Shown here in pieces: positions 804 to 18,660 of a stretch of DNA of 20,199 bases; within the stretch, counting starts at the first letter, position 1, and every line of letters starts with the position of its first letter. Location of the stretch: IMG/VR virus record IMGVR_UViG_3300022540_000259, positions 1 through 20,199 of that record, one strand, 5' to 3'. Below the pieces are notes generated by a model. The model saw only the letters and a program-made list of their open reading frames with translations. It did not search any database and was not told where the DNA came from. Position numbers and translations under genes: made by a program. The DNA is from a virus.

Positions 804-1256
804 ATGGCACAATTAACCAAAGTTTGTTCTTCTTGTAAAATAGAAAAGTCTTGGGATGATTTCTACTCGCGGCGTGGTAGAAAAAATCCTCCGTGTCAAT
901 GTAAGGGGTGTACTATAATAAAACAAAAAGAATATTATCAGAAAAATAAAAAAACTGTTGGGTTAAAGCACAAACATCCTGTAGTAAGAGCTAAAATGCG
1001 TAAACAGCGTATTGAACGAACAAGGAAAAACAAGCAAAAAGCTATAGATTACAAGGGTGGTAAATGTGCTCGATGTGGATATAATAAATGTACGGCTGCT
1101 ATGGACTTTCATCATATCGACTTATCTAAAAAAGAAAGACAAGTTAGTGATATTTTAGGTGGTGCATGGGCAAAATCTAAAAAAGAGTTAGATAAATGTA
1201 TTCTTTTATGTGCTAATTGTCATAGAGAATTACATCATACGGAGAAATATCAATGA
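804..1256 (+). CDS. HNH homing-type endonuclease with N-terminal zinc finger
   Basis: The 150-aa product has two modules. The N-terminus has a Cys pattern (C8-x2-C11 and a C31/C33/C36 cluster) like the zinc finger that precedes many phage HNH nucleases. After a Lys/Arg-rich linker there is a Zn-binding HNH core: CARCG at 88-92, DFHHIDL at 101-107 and CANCHRELHH at 136-145. The invariant His and Asn residues are present, so it looks intact. The expected role is site-specific DNA cleavage that drives spread of its own gene (homing). AAGGA precedes the ATG, and the TGA overlaps the next ATG (ATGA). No conserved intron surrounds it, so it is a free-standing endonuclease inserted between virion genes. 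Confidence 0.88.
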   Translation: MAQLTKVCSSCKIEKSWDDFYSRRGRKNPPCQCKGCTIIKQKEYYQKNKKTVGLKHKHPVVRAKMRKQRIERTRKNKQKAIDYKGGKCARCGYNKCTAAMDFHHIDLSKKERQVSDILGGAWAKSKKELDKCILLCANCHRELHHTEKYQ

Positions 1257-2776: not shown

Positions 2777-3214
2777 ATGGCTTTAAGGAAAACCGATATA
2801 GCTTATATTGCTGGTTTAGTTGATGGTGAGGGAAGTATAATTATTGCTAAATCATATGTTACTAAATATGGTAATTGCTATAGGATTACTACAACCATAA
2901 CGAATAATAATTTGGCTATATTGGAATGGGTTAATGATAAATTTGGTGGTCACATACATAAATCTAATAGTTGTTATATGTGGCAATTAAACGGAAAGAA
3001 GTGTCATAAATTTTTAATATCATTAGCGCCTTACTTAAAAATTAAAAGTGAACAAGCAGAATTAGCTTTGCAGTACATTAGTACTATTAAACACACTGGC
3101 TGTAAAAAACTCTCTAAGGCTATTGTTAAACAAAGAGAGGTGCTTAGAAGAAAAATGCAAAAGTTAAATGGTGAAAGATATATAATACGGAGGGAAGAAG
3201 GTGGCGATTTTTAG
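2777..3214 (+). CDS. LAGLIDADG homing endonuclease, single motif
   Basis: Residues 10-20 read YIAGLVDGEGS, a standard LAGLIDADG helix with its catalytic acidic residue. It is followed by strand-forming segments (SIIIAKSYV, CYRITTTITNN) and a basic C-terminal region, as in this nuclease fold. Only one motif is present in 145 aa, so it should act as a homodimer on a near-palindromic site. It is free-standing, with no intron or intein sequence around it. A GGGAG site precedes the ATG. The 3' end overlaps the downstream small basic gene by 14 bases and supplies that gene's ribosome binding site, which hints at precise integration. Local sequence is visibly more AT-rich than the neighbouring virion genes, consistent with recent acquisition. 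Confidence 0.88.
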   Translation: MALRKTDIAYIAGLVDGEGSIIIAKSYVTKYGNCYRITTTITNNNLAILEWVNDKFGGHIHKSNSCYMWQLNGKKCHKFLISLAPYLKIKSEQAELALQYISTIKHTGCKKLSKAIVKQREVLRRKMQKLNGERYIIRREEGGDF

Positions 3215-6785: not shown

Positions 6786-8732
6786 GTGTTAACCCCGACT
6801 CCGAAACGATGCGACATCAGTGTTAAGAAGTCTATTCAACTGTTGTCGACTAAACTTGATTATGGTGCAAGTCCGATATTTTATGGGCTGACCTTGAGGG
6901 GTCTAACTGCATCTACACTGATTGGTGCTAACGCCGACAAGTTGCTTGAGTCAGTAACCATAGGTACTGGCCTTGACTACACCAGACCCACATTATCATT
7001 ATCTCATCTCGGTATCGAAGCTCTTACTGACCCTGGTGCTGATAGGATATTCTTTTGGGATAACAGTGCGTCCGCAAGTAAATGGTTGGGCATGGGTAAT
7101 TCTGTGGCAATTATTGGTGTCACGTTAGATACAATTCAAGATATTAGAACATCAGCCAGTCCTACATTTATTGGATTGACTTTATCTGGTAAGGTTACTT
7201 CCGGTTCTTTTGCTTCACCTGTAGATGTAACAAATACACGCCAATACGGATTTGAACTTCATTATTCAGGTAATAATTATGATGTCACTGGTATTCGCTC
7301 AAGAGCAAGACTTAAAACTACCGATACGACTGCAACTGCACAAGGAGCTTTACTTCAAGCTGCTAATGAAGATGGCATAAATGCTGGTGTGCTTAATGGT
7401 GCATTGATTGAAGCCATAGGTAAATCAGATGCCAATGCTGCTACTATCGCTGTAATGCGTGGTGCTTTGATTAATACTGAGTGGGGTGATTATGATACAG
7501 TCACCAACCTCAAGACTCTGCACGTTAGGACTCATTCAAGAAATGCTGCTGGTGCTGGTTCCTTTGGTACTGGTTATGGATTATATATTGAGAATGAGGC
7601 CGTAGGCGGGAATGGTCAGGCTTTAGATGCGGGGATATACTTTAAGGGTACTAATTTATCGGCAGGGAATAAAGCGTTTACTTATGGGATTGATTTCAGT
7701 GGTGGGACGTTTGGTGTTGCTGATATAAATCTTACAACTAATGCTTCACTTATAGCTGTAAATGGTGCTACTTTTCTTGCGAACGATGGTACGGCTAATA
7801 TGTTTTTAGGTGAAGATGTTTTTAATAATAGTAGTGGTACTGCTAATGTGGGTTTAGGTTATCGAGCAGGTTATAATAATGATGCTTCAGGAGGAGGTTT
7901 TTTCGGTGGATATAATGTTTATATAGGCAATCAATCAGGTTACGGATTAACTACAGGAGTTAATAATACTGGTTATAATAATGTAGCAATCGGGAATGCA
8001 AGTTTGATACGCAATACAACTGGTTATAATAATGTAGCAATAGGCAACAAAGCTTCATATTACAATAATAGTGGTTATAATAATGTAGCAATCGGGGGAA
8101 GTGCATTACTGGATAATATAGTTGGGCGTAATAATATTGCGATAGGTGCTAATGCTTTGTTTGCTGTTAATAGTCTTAACAATGTGGCAATAGGTATCGC
8201 TTCTTTAAGATATACTACAGGACGAGATAATATGGCCGTAGGAACAAATGTAGGTTATAGAAATGCAGCAGGAAATTATAACGTTGCGTTTGGTTCGCTT
8301 GCTATGTATTATTCGGTGTCAGGAGATGAGAATGTAATAATTGGATACCGGGCTGGATTTGGTTCTGTTGTAGGTGAGTCTTATTCTGATAATGTTTTTA
8401 TTGGCTCTTATTCTGGTTATAAGGCAACAACAGGAAGTCAAAATATTTATTTAGGTTATAGGTCAGGCTATAACCAAACTACTAATTCTAATCGTCTCAT
8501 AATAGATAATCGACAGAGAGCAGATGTAGCTACAGAATTGACTAATGCCATTCTTTATGGTATAATGGCTGCTACTCCGGCAGACCAGTGGCTTTCAATC
8601 AACGCCCATATCATTGTTGATGATATGCCTGTTGGTTCAGACCAGGCTAACGCCGGAGCAGCAGCAGATGAACTTTGGGTGACTTCAGGCCACGCAACTT
8701 TACCCGATAATGTAGTAATGAGGGGTGTGTAA
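6786..8732 (+). CDS. Tail fibre / receptor-binding protein with YadA-head-like repeats
   Basis: This 648-aa protein uses a GTG start at 6786 with AAGG about 9 bases upstream. Residues 1-150 have short repeated strand motifs (SPIFYGLTLRGLT and SPTFIGLTLSGKV), typical of trimeric fibre shafts. Residues 150-325 are Gly/Ala/Asn-rich strands. From about 337 to 570 come thirteen repeats of the form xNxxxG followed about 16-17 residues later by the next (for example NNVAIGNASL, NNIAIGANAL). This is the left-handed beta-roll pattern of YadA-type adhesin heads. The C-terminal about 70 residues may form a tip or trimerisation unit. No membrane anchor or secretion signal is present, which fits a phage fibre better than a bacterial adhesin. 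The likely role is host recognition. Confidence 0.75.
   Translation: MLTPTPKRCDISVKKSIQLLSTKLDYGASPIFYGLTLRGLTASTLIGANADKLLESVTIGTGLDYTRPTLSLSHLGIEALTDPGADRIFFWDNSASASKWLGMGNSVAIIGVTLDTIQDIRTSASPTFIGLTLSGKVTSGSFASPVDVTNTRQYGFELHYSGNNYDVTGIRSRARLKTTDTTATAQGALLQAANEDGINAGVLNGALIEAIGKSDANAATIAVMRGALINTEWGDYDTVTNLKTLHVRTHSRNAAGAGSFGTGYGLYIENEAVGGNGQALDAGIYFKGTNLSAGNKAFTYGIDFSGGTFGVADINLTTNASLIAVNGATFLANDGTANMFLGEDVFNNSSGTANVGLGYRAGYNNDASGGGFFGGYNVYIGNQSGYGLTTGVNNTGYNNVAIGNASLIRNTTGYNNVAIGNKASYYNNSGYNNVAIGGSALLDNIVGRNNIAIGANALFAVNSLNNVAIGIASLRYTTGRDNMAVGTNVGYRNAAGNYNVAFGSLAMYYSVSGDENVIIGYRAGFGSVVGESYSDNVFIGSYSGYKATTGSQNIYLGYRSGYNQTTNSNRLIIDNRQRADVATELTNAILYGIMAATPADQWLSINAHIIVDDMPVGSDQANAGAAADELWVTSGHATLPDNVVMRGV
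7797..8495 (+). repeat. Coding region for thirteen YadA-head-like protein repeats
   Basis: Within the fibre gene, residues about 338-570 contain thirteen copies of an Asn-x-x-x-Gly core spaced mostly 16-17 residues apart, with some longer spacers near the ends. Conserved Asn, Gly and small hydrophobic positions fit stacked beta-roll coils in a trimer. Confidence 0.7.
7971..8092 (+). repeat. Three near-identical 51-bp tandem DNA repeats
   Basis: The 20-mer GGTTATAATAATGTAGCAAT occurs exactly at 7971, 8022 and 8073, spaced 51 bases (17 codons) each. The remaining repeats of the fibre have diverged at the DNA level, so this trio looks like a recent in-frame duplication able to expand or contract. 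Confidence 0.85.
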
Positions 8733-9957: not shown

Positions 9958-10302
9958 ATGGCTAAAAGAAACCACAATAATATAAACCTATATCGTGAAG
10001 TAATAAATCAATGTTGTAATCCGGATTGTAAATTTGGGTGGGGATTAAACACTCATCATATCCATCCTTTAGCAAAAGACGGTGATGATTTATACCTCAA
10101 CTATATAACGCTTTGTGCGGATTGTCATAAAAAAGGTGGGGTTCATTCACGGTATAGTGAAATGCAGATAAAACTTCTTGTGTACAAGTTATTTGCGGAG
10201 AAAATGAAATTAAACTATGATTCTTCTGATTTACCCCAGGAGGAGTTTCACAAGCTTCTTTTGAAGCAACGTAGAATATCACGATTAGAACAAAAAAATT
10301 AA
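9958..10302 (+). CDS. HNH endonuclease (second)
   Basis: A compact 114-aa HNH nuclease. The zinc and catalytic pattern is CNPDC at 20-24, THHIHPLAKDG at 32-42 (the first His pair), NYITLCADCHKKG at 48-60, and a trailing His in GVHS. This arrangement matches the common C-x3-C...HH...N...C-x2-C-H HNH family, and all key residues appear intact. It lacks the N-terminal zinc-finger module of the first HNH protein. It sits between two virion genes with a 2-base gap upstream and a terminator-like hairpin directly downstream, so it resembles a self-contained insertion. Ribosome site is weak. A homing role is inferred; packaging-associated HNH nucleases usually sit beside terminase genes, which are not seen here. 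Confidence 0.85.
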   Translation: MAKRNHNNINLYREVINQCCNPDCKFGWGLNTHHIHPLAKDGDDLYLNYITLCADCHKKGGVHSRYSEMQIKLLVYKLFAEKMKLNYDSSDLPQEEFHKLLLKQRRISRLEQKN

Positions 10303-14660: not shown

Positions 14661-16565
14661 TTATTTACAATCGCCATATCTATTTCCATAAGTAATATCA
14701 ATATCCCAATCTAAGAATATTGGAAGTGCCGCTATCATACATTTTTGTATATAATTTATTGCTATTTCTAAATAAGTTGTAGGGGTTTCAACACAAACCT
14801 CATCATGTACTAAATTAACCAATTTAATATTTGTATCCTTAACAATCTCTGATGCTGCTTTCTTAAGAACGTCTCCACCATAAGATTGAATCTTGAAATT
14901 AAAAGCCTGCCTATAACACCTCTCCTTACCCCACTTGTTTAACTTGTAGAAGTCAGGGAATCTCCTCTTACGCCTTGACATATTTGTAACAAACCCATAC
15001 TTGTATACTTGCTGACGGGTCTGCTCAATAACTCGTTTAAGTCCTGGATACTGGGCAAAGAACTTGTCGATGAATACCTGTGCCTCTTTCTCTGAACAGT
15101 TAAAATCCTTAGCAAATCCATAAGCCGACTTACCGTATGCCGTACCAAACACCACACACTTACAATCGTCACGTTGTTCTGTGTACTTTGCCTTTGCTGC
15201 CTTGTGCTCCTCTGTCTTGTCAGTTAGGCCAAAAGCAGATATATTCAGTCCGTGCATCTCGTTGGCTGTGGCTAAATGAACATCATAACCTTTCCGTAGT
15301 GCATTTTTTAGGTTAGTGTCACCACTCTCCTGAGCCATTATACGGACTTCCTGACCACAATTTCCTGTAATAGACACTTTACCATTTCGTCTAACTATTA
15401 ATGTATGTTGCGGCATGGTTACACAATATACATAGCCCTTATATGGAATTACATCTTGCTTTAGAGTTTTTATATATGTTGATGTTTTTTTGGTTAAAGT
15501 AACTTCACCACAATCTTTTCTCAAAATTATTTTATCCGTCTTATTTCTAATAGTATAATTAGACCTACGCCCACTTAATATCCCAAGCTCTTGTACTATT
15601 TCACAATTTTCGAGATTAGTAGAGTAGTAAATATGACTATCCTTACTCCCATCCCATAATTCCAGTTCGTCTAAAAATATATTACGACAAACGAGGGTTA
15701 AATCCTTTAATAGTTTTCTGTTGAATGTTTTATTTGTTAGTAAATACTTCATAAACCGTTGTTCGGGTTGAAAGTTTATTCCATACCCAGCAGCCTTAAT
15801 TTTGCTAATCCATACTTTATATTTAATATCTAAATTACAAAGTATATTTTTAAGCCTATCTATTTTTCTTTTTTTCTTTAACCAAAATGTTATACCTTGT
15901 TTATCAATTTTACTATCAGCTTGGATTGCGGCAACAAGAGCCACAATATTAAAGTTTTCATCTTTATTACCATTATATTTGCCTGATTGTATTTGACTAA
16001 GATGTTTTTTAACAAAAAAGTTATCCGCCCTCTGGTATTCTGTTTTTCCATTTTTGTTATTTAACAATAAACATTTATGATTATTTGTTACACATAAATC
16101 TACCTGTCTATCCCCGTGTATGTGGTACAAACCACCGTCATAATACACATTCTGGTATGCTACAGGTGTTGCGAAGGTAACTCTACCATCTGACCATTGA
16201 GCTAATTTTTCATTAGTTAGCCAACAAAACCTTCTCCACCCATCTTCGGTTAAAACCTCGGTATCTGGCGAGAAGCAGTAATCAGCAACAATAAGAACAT
16301 TGTCAGACTCGGCCACAAATAAATTACGTATATTGGCAATGTCATTGTTTTTAGGAAGTTGCTCAATGTTAGGCTTACTACAAGATAATCTACCTGTCAC
16401 GCAGACAGTGTTGTGAAAGGAGGGTCGTATTCGTCCATCTTTTTGGACAAAGGTTTCAAATGGAATAAGGAATGTAGATAATAATTTTGACACCTTCCTA
16501 TATTTTAATAATAAATTTATAAACTTTAATTGTTTCTCAAGTAACTTTCTATTTTCTCTTGGCAT
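14661..16565 (-). CDS. DNA polymerase family A, C-terminal catalytic fragment with intein
   Basis: The 634-aa precursor holds the thumb, palm and fingers of a family A (Pol I-like) polymerase interrupted by an intein at 97-402. Host-protein landmarks: KYRKVSKLLSTFL (21-33), TGRLSCSKPN (57-66), motif A as VADY before and CGQEVRIMA after the intein, and the O-helix R465-x3-K469-x3-F473-x3-YG. Motif C is VHDE at 586-589. The catalytic Asp residues (D95, D588) are present, so the spliced product should be competent if it meets the missing N-terminal parts. Exonuclease and early polymerase regions are encoded by two separate upstream ORFs. The ATG at 16565 lies inside the end of the Endo VII-like gene (40-base overlap). 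Phe in the O-helix is the residue associated with discrimination against dideoxynucleotides in this family. Confidence 0.92.
   Translation of the reverse strand: MPRENRKLLEKQLKFINLLLKYRKVSKLLSTFLIPFETFVQKDGRIRPSFHNTVCVTGRLSCSKPNIEQLPKNNDIANIRNLFVAESDNVLIVADYCFSPDTEVLTEDGWRRFCWLTNEKLAQWSDGRVTFATPVAYQNVYYDGGLYHIHGDRQVDLCVTNNHKCLLLNNKNGKTEYQRADNFFVKKHLSQIQSGKYNGNKDENFNIVALVAAIQADSKIDKQGITFWLKKKRKIDRLKNILCNLDIKYKVWISKIKAAGYGINFQPEQRFMKYLLTNKTFNRKLLKDLTLVCRNIFLDELELWDGSKDSHIYYSTNLENCEIVQELGILSGRRSNYTIRNKTDKIILRKDCGEVTLTKKTSTYIKTLKQDVIPYKGYVYCVTMPQHTLIVRRNGKVSITGNCGQEVRIMAQESGDTNLKNALRKGYDVHLATANEMHGLNISAFGLTDKTEEHKAAKAKYTEQRDDCKCVVFGTAYGKSAYGFAKDFNCSEKEAQVFIDKFFAQYPGLKRVIEQTRQQVYKYGFVTNMSRRKRRFPDFYKLNKWGKERCYRQAFNFKIQSYGGDVLKKAASEIVKDTNIKLVNLVHDEVCVETPTTYLEIAINYIQKCMIAALPIFLDWDIDITYGNRYGDCK
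15360..16277 (-). mobile_element. Intein with divergent LAGLIDADG endonuclease, 306 aa
   Basis: The inserted protein begins with Cys97 (block A, CFSPDTEVLTEDGW) and has block B VTNNHK with T160 and H163. It ends KVSITGN followed by Cys403 as the +1 residue. The penultimate residue is Gly, not the usual His, and block F reads VYCVTMPQHTLIV. Two LAGLIDADG-type motifs lie between blocks B and F: ALVAAIQADSK (209-219) and FLDELELWDGSK (297-308). Both keep the acidic residue but lose glycine positions, so cleavage activity is doubtful. Splicing residues are otherwise intact. The intein sits two residues after the motif A catalytic Asp, a favoured conserved target. The coding DNA is visibly more AT-rich than the flanking polymerase. 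Confidence 0.92.
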
Positions 16566-16990
16566 ATTTTATACCATCCCAGTCTTGAATTACAATTAGA
16601 ACAAAGAAGTCCACGAATCTTACCAGAGGTATGGCAATGGTCAATCACTAATTGTGTAGTATTTCCTTTTCTTTTACGAGTTTCTGGTTTTCCACAAATT
16701 AAACACACCCCATTTTGAGACGCAAACATCTCATTATATTGTTCAATAGTTATTCCATAATTATATCCTAAGCTATAATATCTCCTCTCGTTTCTATATC
16801 GTTCTCTATTTTGCTTCCACCACTCTTTTTGACATTTTTTGATATGTTCTTTATTTTGCTGGCGGTATTCTTTGCAACACTCTTTGCACCAAATATTTAA
16901 TCCATCTTTTTTCCTTTTGGTTCTGTTAAAATAGCTCGCCGTTGCTGGCAATTTTGTTTTACACTTACAACATATTTTCATTTGTAACAT
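16526..16990 (-). CDS. Endonuclease VII-type HNH homing endonuclease
   Basis: The 154-aa product has an N-terminal zinc module (CCKCKTKLPATASYFNR with C7/C8, C10, and CKEC at 35-38), a basic linker and a C-terminal recombination endonuclease VII core. The core reads GVCLICGKPE (95-103), VIDHCHTSGKIRGLLCSNCN (115-134) and SRLGWY. His and Asn catalytic positions are present. It separates the middle and C-terminal polymerase fragments, overlapping the first by 26 bases and the second by 40. AAGGA lies six bases before the ATG. No room remains for a group I intron, so it is an intronless insertion. T4 endonuclease VII resolves DNA junctions, but proteins of this short form inside other genes are usually homing enzymes. 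Confidence 0.9.
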   Translation of the reverse strand: MLQMKICCKCKTKLPATASYFNRTKRKKDGLNIWCKECCKEYRQQNKEHIKKCQKEWWKQNRERYRNERRYYSLGYNYGITIEQYNEMFASQNGVCLICGKPETRKRKGNTTQLVIDHCHTSGKIRGLLCSNCNSRLGWYKICQEKIESYLRNN

Positions 16991-17582
16991 TCAGTTTCCT
17001 TTCAACATCACTTTTTAACCTTTCTAAAACTTGTGTTGTTGTTGCTAAGTTTCCCTTCTTAGTTTTCTCTGTTAATTTAATACCTAAACTATGTAAACAC
17101 TTTGCAACCTGTTGCCCACTATTCATATTAATCTGGGGCTTAGCGAATACCTTTCTTCCTCTGGGGGTAATTCCTACATCATACCCCTTACCAAATAACT
17201 TTAACATCTCATCTTCTAATTGGTAGGACAAGTGACTTACATCTTCTTTCATCTTCTTTGCTGCTTTAACATCTGTGGCTATCCCATTTATCGCAAGGTG
17301 CATCAACGCTTTCTGGAATGGGAACTCGATATCATAAGCAAGGTGATGCAAACCTTGTTTTTCTATCTGGGGTGACTGTAGTTTATACAAGTCATAGGTA
17401 TTTATTGCATCTTCTGTAGCATACTTAGCAAACTCTGGACTATCAGTACCATACTGTATGACATCTTTATATTTTGTTGTTTCTCTATGGAGTTGAGTAC
17501 GAGTCAGGTACTTTAATCCGTTCTCTTTTAGGTTTTCATCGAGTAGGTGACTCGCCGTAAGTGTATCGTAGATTATTGGCAT
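16965..17582 (-). CDS. DNA polymerase family A, middle fragment (Exo III to thumb start)
   Basis: This 205-aa ORF carries sequence that normally lies inside a single polymerase chain. It opens MPIIYDTLTASHLLDENLKE, which ordinarily follows the Exo II region, then Exo III as YATED (Y54, D58). A helical linker follows, and then the start of the polymerase domain (INMNSGQQVAKCLHSLGI, GNLATTTQVLERL). The last about 15 residues look like readthrough into the inserted Endo VII-like gene. The ATG directly follows the TAA of the Zn-ribbon gene. It has no independent domain boundary at either end, so it is best explained as the middle of a broken gene. Function would need non-covalent pairing with the other two fragments. 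Confidence 0.9.
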   Translation of the reverse strand: MPIIYDTLTASHLLDENLKENGLKYLTRTQLHRETTKYKDVIQYGTDSPEFAKYATEDAINTYDLYKLQSPQIEKQGLHHLAYDIEFPFQKALMHLAINGIATDVKAAKKMKEDVSHLSYQLEDEMLKLFGKGYDVGITPRGRKVFAKPQINMNSGQQVAKCLHSLGIKLTEKTKKGNLATTTQVLERLKSDVERKLNVTNENML

Positions 17583-17741
17583 TTAATCAGTTATATCCCC
17601 AGATATAATACCACAAGTATCCGAGCACTTATAATTACAATCAGGATTATCACATTCTATTTCTTGTATAAACATACTACCAGTACCGTATAACTCACCG
17701 GTACTACATTTTGGACAGGGATATTTTCTACTATCATTCAT
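17583..17741 (-). CDS. Zinc-ribbon small protein, 52 aa, inside the polymerase locus
   Basis: The ATG at 17741 overlaps the methyltransferase stop (ATGA) and follows AAGGAGGGG, one of the best ribosome sites in the window. The product has a CPKC pair at 9-12 and further cysteines at 30, 35, 39 and 43 (CDNPDCNYKCSDTC), which fits one or two zinc knuckles. It ends in TAA immediately before the ATG of the middle polymerase fragment. Together with the methyltransferase it forms the inserted cassette. It could give DNA-target specificity or be an unrelated passenger; nothing in the sequence decides. I do not recognise a named family. Confidence 0.75.
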   Translation of the reverse strand: MNDSRKYPCPKCSTGELYGTGSMFIQEIECDNPDCNYKCSDTCGIISGDITD

Positions 17742-18373
17742 ATTTCTATCCCCTCCTTTAACTCAGCAATTCTTTGTTCGATAACTTGACAGTATTTTTC
17801 TGAAATTTCACTGGCTATATAATCACAATTATTTATTATGCAGGAAACAGGAACAGTACCGCTTCCACAAAATGGGTCATAAACTGTTATTCTTTCTCCT
17901 CTTGCAACTCTACTTATTATCCAGTTAGCCCATCCGATAGGCTTAGGACAAGGATGATTAAATGAACCTTTTTTTGTTCGTCCAACATTTTGAAAATAAT
18001 CGTGCATATACAACAAGTTAATTCTTCTGCCATAAACAAGATGAGGCTCCCAATCATTAAAACCTATATAAGCCGCGTGACCAGTAGAGCCCTTGTACCA
18101 ACAAATAAGCCAATCAGGAGGGTAGTTAGTATATATCCATTTAAGTCTCCTTATCTGGCAACTGGGCAGTATTACCATTTTTGAAACTCTTATCATTTCT
18201 GGTAAAACTCGTTCCATTAATTTGTACCAATTTTCTTCTGTATCATCATAACTATCATATTTCAGATTTATTCCATAAGGCGGGTCAGTTAATATAAAAT
18301 CAATTTCTTTATCCCCTAACTTAGACATTGTAATTAAACAGTTCTCATTGTATATTTTGTTTAACTCAATCAT
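17738..18373 (-). CDS. Beta-class DNA methyltransferase (N6-adenine or N4-cytosine)
   Basis: The 211-aa enzyme shows catalytic motif IV DPPYG at 30-34 before the SAM-binding motif I DPFCGSGTV at 166-174. HPCPKP (140-145) and GWANWIISR lie just ahead of motif I. This motif order defines the beta class of amino-methyltransferases. DPPY is more often found in N6-adenine enzymes, but N4-cytosine cannot be excluded. No restriction endonuclease is visible, so it is an orphan enzyme, as often in phages, where it may protect against host restriction. It lies between polymerase fragments; its ATG overlaps the exonuclease fragment's stop (ATGA) and its own TGA overlaps the Zn-ribbon start. Length is short for the class, with a small target-recognition region. 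Confidence 0.92.
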   Translation of the reverse strand: MIELNKIYNENCLITMSKLGDKEIDFILTDPPYGINLKYDSYDDTEENWYKLMERVLPEMIRVSKMVILPSCQIRRLKWIYTNYPPDWLICWYKGSTGHAAYIGFNDWEPHLVYGRRINLLYMHDYFQNVGRTKKGSFNHPCPKPIGWANWIISRVARGERITVYDPFCGSGTVPVSCIINNCDYIASEISEKYCQVIEQRIAELKEGIEI

Positions 18374-18660
18374 ATATCTATTTCTTCCTTCTTGAGTGAC
18401 ATCATATCGTAGGGGGCTGAGTGCATCACTATCATCTTAGCCTCTGAAATATAATAGTCAAGAATCATCAACAGCTCTTTCTTGTACTTCTTCTTGATGT
18501 CAACATAGCACGCTTGCTTTCCATCACAAATTGAGAAGCCTATCATTTCAAGGTCAAGCCAGTTAAGTGAACTTGTCTCGGTATCAAAGCTAAACACATC
18601 TTTACAGTTCGCCATCCATTCCTTGAAATCATTGGGGGTTGTTATCACGCTCGTTTTCAT
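18370..18660 (-). CDS. DNA polymerase family A, N-terminal 3'-5' exonuclease fragment
   Basis: This 96-aa ORF contains Exo I as FSFDTETS (D26, E28) and Exo II as VMHSAPYDMM (D85) of a DnaQ-like proofreading domain, then stops at KKEEIDI. In intact relatives the next residues would resemble PIIYDT, which is exactly how the middle fragment begins after its Met. Exo III is therefore missing here, and the domain cannot be complete by itself. The ATG overlaps the previous stop (ATGA) with only a weak ribosome site, so it is probably translated by coupling. It is the first of three polymerase pieces. Confidence 0.88.
   Translation of the reverse strand: MKTSVITTPNDFKEWMANCKDVFSFDTETSSLNWLDLEMIGFSICDGKQACYVDIKKKYKKELLMILDYYISEAKMIVMHSAPYDMMSLKKEEIDI

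Follow-up and report, generated by a model that had tools for sequence, protein, structure and literature searches.

How a phage replicative DNA polymerase comes to be encoded in three separate pieces, and whether these pieces could still form one enzyme, is the question raised by a 20,199-base record of an uncultivated phage (IMG/VR IMGVR_UViG_3300022540_000259; the whole stretch is referred to here as the window), whose polymerase locus lies on the minus strand from 18660 to 14661. A family A DNA polymerase is spread there over three open reading frames (ORFs) of 96, 205, and 634 amino acids (aa), arranged in order on that strand. We consider it likely that this is a genes-in-pieces polymerase whose three interruptions differ in age. 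The oldest would be the cut in the exonuclease domain, made long ago and without loss of residues in the loop that joins the Exo II helix to the next strand; the split would then have become fixed in a phage clade, its gap turning into a slot for swapped cargo, mostly DNA methyltransferases, within a tightly packed and probably translationally coupled operon. Later, and only in the lineage of the window, an Endonuclease VII-type HNH homing endonuclease would have entered a loop at the tip of the thumb, co-converting the flanking polymerase sequence; a homing intein, also restricted to this lineage, would have entered motif A. The working enzyme of the window would most likely be a non-covalent assembly of the N-terminal exonuclease half (exo-N), the middle piece, and the spliced C-terminal piece, and that of its relatives would consist of exo-N and one chain of 485-510 aa.

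The first piece (exo-N; 18370..18660, minus strand; 96 aa) is the N-terminal half of the 3'-5' exonuclease domain, carries Exo I (D26/E28) and Exo II (D85), and matches Pfam DNA_pol_A_exo1 (E=5.7e-9). The second (16965..17582, minus strand; 205 aa) contains Exo III (Y54/D58), the start of the polymerase domain, and the first part of the thumb. The third (14661..16565, minus strand; 634 aa, or 328 aa without the intein) comprises the remaining thumb, the palm, and the fingers, with motif A (D95), motif B (R465/K469), and motif C (HDE587), and matches Pfam DNA_pol_A (E=5.3e-63). Exo I-III and then the polymerase motifs A, B, and C follow each other in order across the chains, as expected of a family A (Klenow-like) enzyme, and the thumb itself is divided between pieces 2 and 3. 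This arrangement had been described in a first-pass annotation made from the sequence alone, and ORF positions and profile matches agree with it, including the motif assignments, the placement of a methyltransferase plus Zn-ribbon pair and of an Endonuclease VII-type HNH gene between the pieces, and a total of about 629 aa after removal of the intein (extein sum 96+205+328 = 629 aa). NCBIfam PRK05755 is covered from 299 to 395 in piece 1 and from 399 to 582 in piece 2, and the coverage of Pfam DNA_pol_A is almost continuous (26-70 in piece 2; 68-160 and 162-380 in piece 3). Judging from these profiles and from alignment to intact sister polymerases, no conserved segment is missing at the junctions. 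All pieces are free of frameshifts and premature stops, and the inserted genes are all complete ORFs.

The age of the first break was assessed from related sequences. Scans of IMG/VR recovered six contigs (L008-L013) whose polymerase pieces are 57-75% identical to those of the window; they represent five distinct sequences, two contigs being identical over the compared 2-kb polymerase stretch. All six have the exo break at the same codon (...KEGI[ED]x* followed by MPxI[FY]...), and in each of them a 96-aa exo-N is accompanied by one uninterrupted ORF of 485-510 aa that has neither the HNH gene nor the intein; piece 2 of the window opens with the same MPxI[FY] residues as these ORFs. Seven sister polymerases (L048-L053 and L063), about 37-41% identical in the searched C-terminal part (for L063, 49% over 61 residues up to the contig end), each keep one open frame across both break sites. 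A maximum-likelihood tree groups the split sequences, six of them distinct, in a single clade (100/100), with the intact sequences beside it. Because the split clade is monophyletic beside intact sisters, the exo split is, on this phylogeny, a derived state fixed before the clade diversified. The first-pass annotation spoke of three independent insertions, a wording that suggests equivalent events in this phage with the methyltransferase plus Zn-ribbon cassette as the splitter; in that form it has to be corrected, as the exo break is ancestral to the clade and the window-specific interruptions are just those by the HNH gene and the intein. Variants lacking the insertions, which it had proposed to look for, do exist: the six relatives are free of HNH and intein, and the exo site is unsplit in the seven sisters. 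An assembly or sequencing artefact, which a unique arrangement on a metagenomic contig might bring to mind, is hardly credible: recurrence of the identical split in six other contigs excludes it for the exo break, the inserted ORFs are complete, and a tract of divergent sequence described below is centred on the HNH gene.

Split proteins and the intact ones aligned with them both have four residues separating GIE/GID from the [IF]F strand. Because this spacing is the same, the exo seam is, by alignment, scarless: no residue has been lost, and the new start Met replaces one residue. Both breaks were placed on a predicted model of the intact sister L053 (mean predicted local distance difference test score, pLDDT, 82), which puts the exo seam between residues 100 and 101, within a coil (96-102) that links a helix (86-95) to a strand (103-106), and the thumb break within a coil (288-293) between thumb helices. 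The claim that the breaks fall within domains was therefore right as far as domains are concerned, but both lie in loops between secondary-structure elements. Relative to the Klenow fragment, the seam follows directly after GIEL, near residues 435/436 (numbering by our own count).

Three scans of viral contigs, made with alignments of the polymerase and of the exo part, yielded no further clade member; a DNA-pattern scan for other split polymerases (ATG-P-x-...-FDT) returned only four known clade contigs and four chance matches; and a scan of genome contigs found only distant PolA genes, laid out in the ordinary way, in metagenome-assembled genomes. Two peculiarities were seen within the clade. 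In L013 (about 8073-8220), the Exo III region departs from the clade (piece identity 57%) and resembles that of the intact sister L049 (HGLKVLA..., YGMNDAIWTYQL), which suggests recombination inside the second exo half, just past the split. In L011 (1862-3319) and L012, the polymerase is without about 24 residues of the fingers region that are present in all other clade members, and its length at this gap is closer to that of ordinary PolA.

The slot between exo-N and the next piece varies from 155 to 1238 nucleotides (nt) across the clade, and so do its contents. In the window, it contains a gene for an N6/N4-type DNA methyltransferase (17738..18373, minus strand; 211 aa; Pfam N6_N4_Mtase 1.5e-15, PHROG 67 1.4e-29), which is specific to the window, and one for a Zn-ribbon-like protein (17583..17741, minus strand; 52 aa), which has no significant Pfam family and is 87% identical to the sole slot gene of L011 and L012. 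The slot of those two contigs has this Zn-ribbon only and that of L009 a 55-aa membrane-like protein only, both without methyltransferase; L010 carries a PHROG 757 methyltransferase and a small ORF, L013 an N6/N4 methyltransferase differing from that of the window, and L008 a PHROG 24333 methyltransferase and an MT-A70 gene. Because the same break is found in relatives carrying other slot genes, some of them without any methyltransferase, the methyltransferase is, on this comparison, not the splitter but one tenant of an old slot. MT-A70-type methyltransferase genes were also observed upstream of exo-N (L008 5783-6301; L009 6553-7242, with additional sequence ahead of the MT-A70 domain; L010 3470-3928), and gene turnover is fast throughout the exo-N neighbourhood.

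Entry into the slot (in the window, 18370..18390, minus strand) consists of a Shine-Dalgarno-like AAGGAGGG within the last exo-N codons and an ATGA stop/start overlap, while in L008 the first slot frame overlaps exo-N by 8 nt. At the junctions between slot and next piece, stop and start codons overlap, are adjacent, or lie one base apart, and this packing suggests translational coupling of the genes. In addition, a 21-bp near-copy of the exo-N junction is located at the end of the methyltransferase gene (17758-17738), whose product ends in KEGIEI*. The motif has four mismatches to the exo end of the window and 1, 2, 1, and 2 to the exo ends of relatives (five to that of L008), and about 0-0.2 such sites per locus occur in shuffled sequence. 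A methyltransferase gene between near-direct junction repeats fits insertion or exchange at this point; a stereotyped ribosome-binding site could explain part of the likeness, as similar motifs precede other genes. These features might be combined into a bolder proposal, which we hold tentatively and at somewhat less than an even chance: the fixed break in the proofreading domain would act as a lasting point of entry for genes that can be exchanged, methyltransferases above all; the exonuclease would necessarily fold from two chains, the end of exo-N would provide the ribosome-binding site for the slot gene, and the 21-bp near-repeat might serve the exchanges.

A homing endonuclease may once have occupied the slot. 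In L008 (6755-6832), a 26-aa leader at the exo stop, MFKRIKDFPNYLVCDDGIVKRGGRNM, resembles the N-terminus of an HNH protein of L050 (12788-13390; 40%, E=0.011), which is a hint of such a past and not proof. NUMOD4 was considered as an identity for this leader and rejected for want of Pfam support.

At the second break, the Endonuclease VII-type HNH gene (16526..16990, minus strand; 154 aa; Pfam Endonuclease_7 1.1e-19, PHROG 2633 7.9e-28) shares 26 nt with piece 2 and 40 nt with piece 3; it is absent from the thumb site in all six relatives, whose polymerase runs through. Over most of the protein, identity between the window and the clade amounts to about 0.7-0.9; in the stretch that starts at about residue 95 of piece 2 and ends at residue 33 of piece 3 it falls to 0.13-0.6, whereas within-clade identity stays at about 0.8-0.93 across this tract. 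The dip is centred on the HNH gene, with none around the intein and a milder one near the C-terminus. Such a divergent tract (16466..17297, minus strand; edges approximate) would be expected if homing from a distant donor had co-converted the flanks, and a co-conversion tract is its probable identity. Unsplit orthologues, an endonuclease gene in the gap, and co-conversion-like flanks, three marks of genes in pieces made by a free-standing homing endonuclease, are all found at the thumb break.

The same junctions bear on whether self-splicing introns (group I or II, in cis or in trans) might restore one continuous polymerase mRNA, since the family A polymerase genes of other phages, SPO1 and Bastille among them, often carry group I introns with HNH genes (PMC11878797). 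This is very improbable here. At the thumb break there is no room for an intron core because the HNH gene overlaps both neighbouring pieces, and the slots of 155 nt (L011) and 163 nt (L009) are fully coding, their stop and start codons overlapping or abutting. A search of the window region with Rfam gave no intron match up to E=5, only a chance snoRNA match, and the loci of L010, L011, and L013 gave none either, with a sensitivity that is uncertain, the Listeria P70 locus being likewise matchless. The polymerase of Listeria phages P70/LP-114, interrupted by HNH, had been considered as a precedent and was dropped, as no intron model matched.

The third interruption is a putative intein of 306 aa (15360..16277, minus strand), located between Tyr and Cys of motif A and possessing an endonuclease-like middle region; at this site, all six relatives have DYS or DYV and no insert. 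The residues of a class 1 intein can be read directly (Cys1, block B TNNH, and a C-terminal ...ITGN^C), with Gly as the penultimate residue, likewise present in the Vequintavirus intein. End to end, the element is 28-30% identical to inteins in phage genes for ribonucleotide reductase (RNR), NAMPT, and DNA polymerase, the best E being about 2e-20. Because the Pfam profile is below its cut-off (Intein_splicing PF14890: E=7.6e-5, 23 bits against a curated 35.8) and the single-sequence AlphaFold2 model is poor (pLDDT 33), the assignment, already made in the first pass, rests on homology and splice-site residues, from which we infer that the protein would splice. No relatives of the intein were found in a search of viral contigs. 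A same-site intein in the Vequintavirus polymerase had been suggested by a BLAST span and was rejected, as the site differs (GDAH^C...GN^CNN).

Whether the pieces make one enzyme can be approached through selection and the distribution of catalytic residues. Exo-N is 96 aa long in every member, without frame damage, and its ratio of nonsynonymous to synonymous substitution rates (dN/dS), a rough measure here with synonymous sites near saturation, is about 0.06-0.17 where dS is finite, indicating purifying selection; the first 95 codons of piece 2 have values of about 0.04-0.09, and the C-terminal extein of piece 3 compared with relatives about 0.08-0.13. Acidic residues of Exo I, II, and III are retained in both chains of all members. 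Because the catalytic residues of a single active site are divided between two chains, non-covalent trans-assembly into an active enzyme is the best and simplest reading. The proofreading domain could instead be on its way out, with exo-N a relic or otherwise employed and only the polymerase chain working, and diverged phage PolA proteins that have lost exonuclease activity are indeed known (PMC11348598). We regard this as improbable, given that all Exo acidic residues are kept, that exo-N remains 96 aa throughout under purifying selection, and that conservation extends to the first part of piece 2, where the remaining half of the exonuclease fold lies.

It is also conceivable that the polymerase of the window is a recently broken, decaying copy, abolished by the thumb HNH gene in a phage that uses another polymerase. 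Just one contig shows the HNH split, extra residues are present at the break in pieces 2 and 3, and the window is a 20-kb fragment; still, we think it unlikely. No piece has a frameshift or premature stop, motifs A, B, and C are intact, the C-terminal extein of piece 3 has the low dN/dS given above, and piece 3 has its own start codon with GGGATGG upstream. No second polymerase was found in the window, and the records of the six relatives (31-51 kb, possibly incomplete) have one family A match each and no family B or C match. Several points weigh against the history of interruptions proposed here. No member of the clade currently has a homing endonuclease in the slot, which holds methyltransferases, the Zn-ribbon, or the membrane protein, and its sole trace of one, the L008 leader, is unrecognised by Pfam; the additional thumb-break residues of pieces 2 and 3 are non-native; the state with HNH and intein is known from one contig; and the dN/dS values are rough. 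We infer that the exo split may have originated through a homing endonuclease and that the HNH gene of the window would be capable of homing.

Genes in pieces have been reported in T4-type phages, namely Aeh1 nrdA (mobE), T4 topoisomerase gene 60 (mobA), and gene 43 of phages 25 and 44RR; the split Aeh1 NrdA is active, and gp43A/gp43B of phage 25 co-purify with polymerase activity (PMC2988022). Like the gp43A/gp43B of Aeromonas phages 25 and 44RR, the present enzyme is a phage replicative polymerase in two pieces at its first break, and phage 25 has a homing endonuclease gene at the split (PMC2988022). Unlike those family B proteins, it belongs to family A, is cut in the RNase H-like exonuclease fold, and has a slot with changing cargo, a second split, and an intein. 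Aeh1 nrdA/mobE and T4 gene 60/mobA, with a free-standing homing endonuclease in an essential gene, separate chains, and no intron, match the HNH break (PMC2988022), although the target genes are others and the exo break here holds exchangeable genes and no endonuclease today. The group I introns with HNH of SPO1 and Bastille share the target gene family and an endonuclease-linked interruption (PMC11878797); there, RNA splicing rejoins one mRNA, whereas here no intron was found and there is no room for one. Similarly, the intein shows homology over all 306 aa to those of T5-like RNR, staphylococcal phage NAMPT, and Vequintavirus DNA polymerase, but is situated in motif A of a family A polymerase, the Vequintavirus intein being at another polymerase point. 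Term searches of two surveys of phage family A polymerases brought up no such split (PMC11348598, PMC6302109), and the open-access literature searched yielded no case of a family A proofreading domain fixed as two chains around a slot for exchangeable cargo. Enzymes from genes in pieces are thus known, and the combination of a two-chain family A proofreading domain and a cargo slot is, provisionally, apparently new.

Elsewhere in the window, among rightward structural genes, there are an HNH-like ORF (804-1256, plus strand; Pfam HNH E=0.28 only), a LAGLIDADG gene (2777-3214, plus strand; 3.4e-5), and an HNH gene (9958-10302, plus strand; 4.7e-7), which brings the homing-endonuclease-like elements in these 20 kb to about five, the polymerase HNH and the intein included. 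A 648-aa protein (6786-8732, plus strand) with many NNVAIG-type repeats resembles, judging from its translation, the head repeats of trimeric adhesin-like tail fibres.

These findings would mean that selfish insertions can leave a permanent mark on a replicative enzyme, here a split RNase H-like exonuclease under purifying selection across the clade, and that the scar may be reused for swapping modification genes, which could help against host restriction. Intact sisters, relatives, and the window would together provide a comparative series for how polymerases tolerate cuts, from one chain through two chains to three chains plus an intein, and the two-chain exonuclease may be a natural template for split-polymerase design in vitro.

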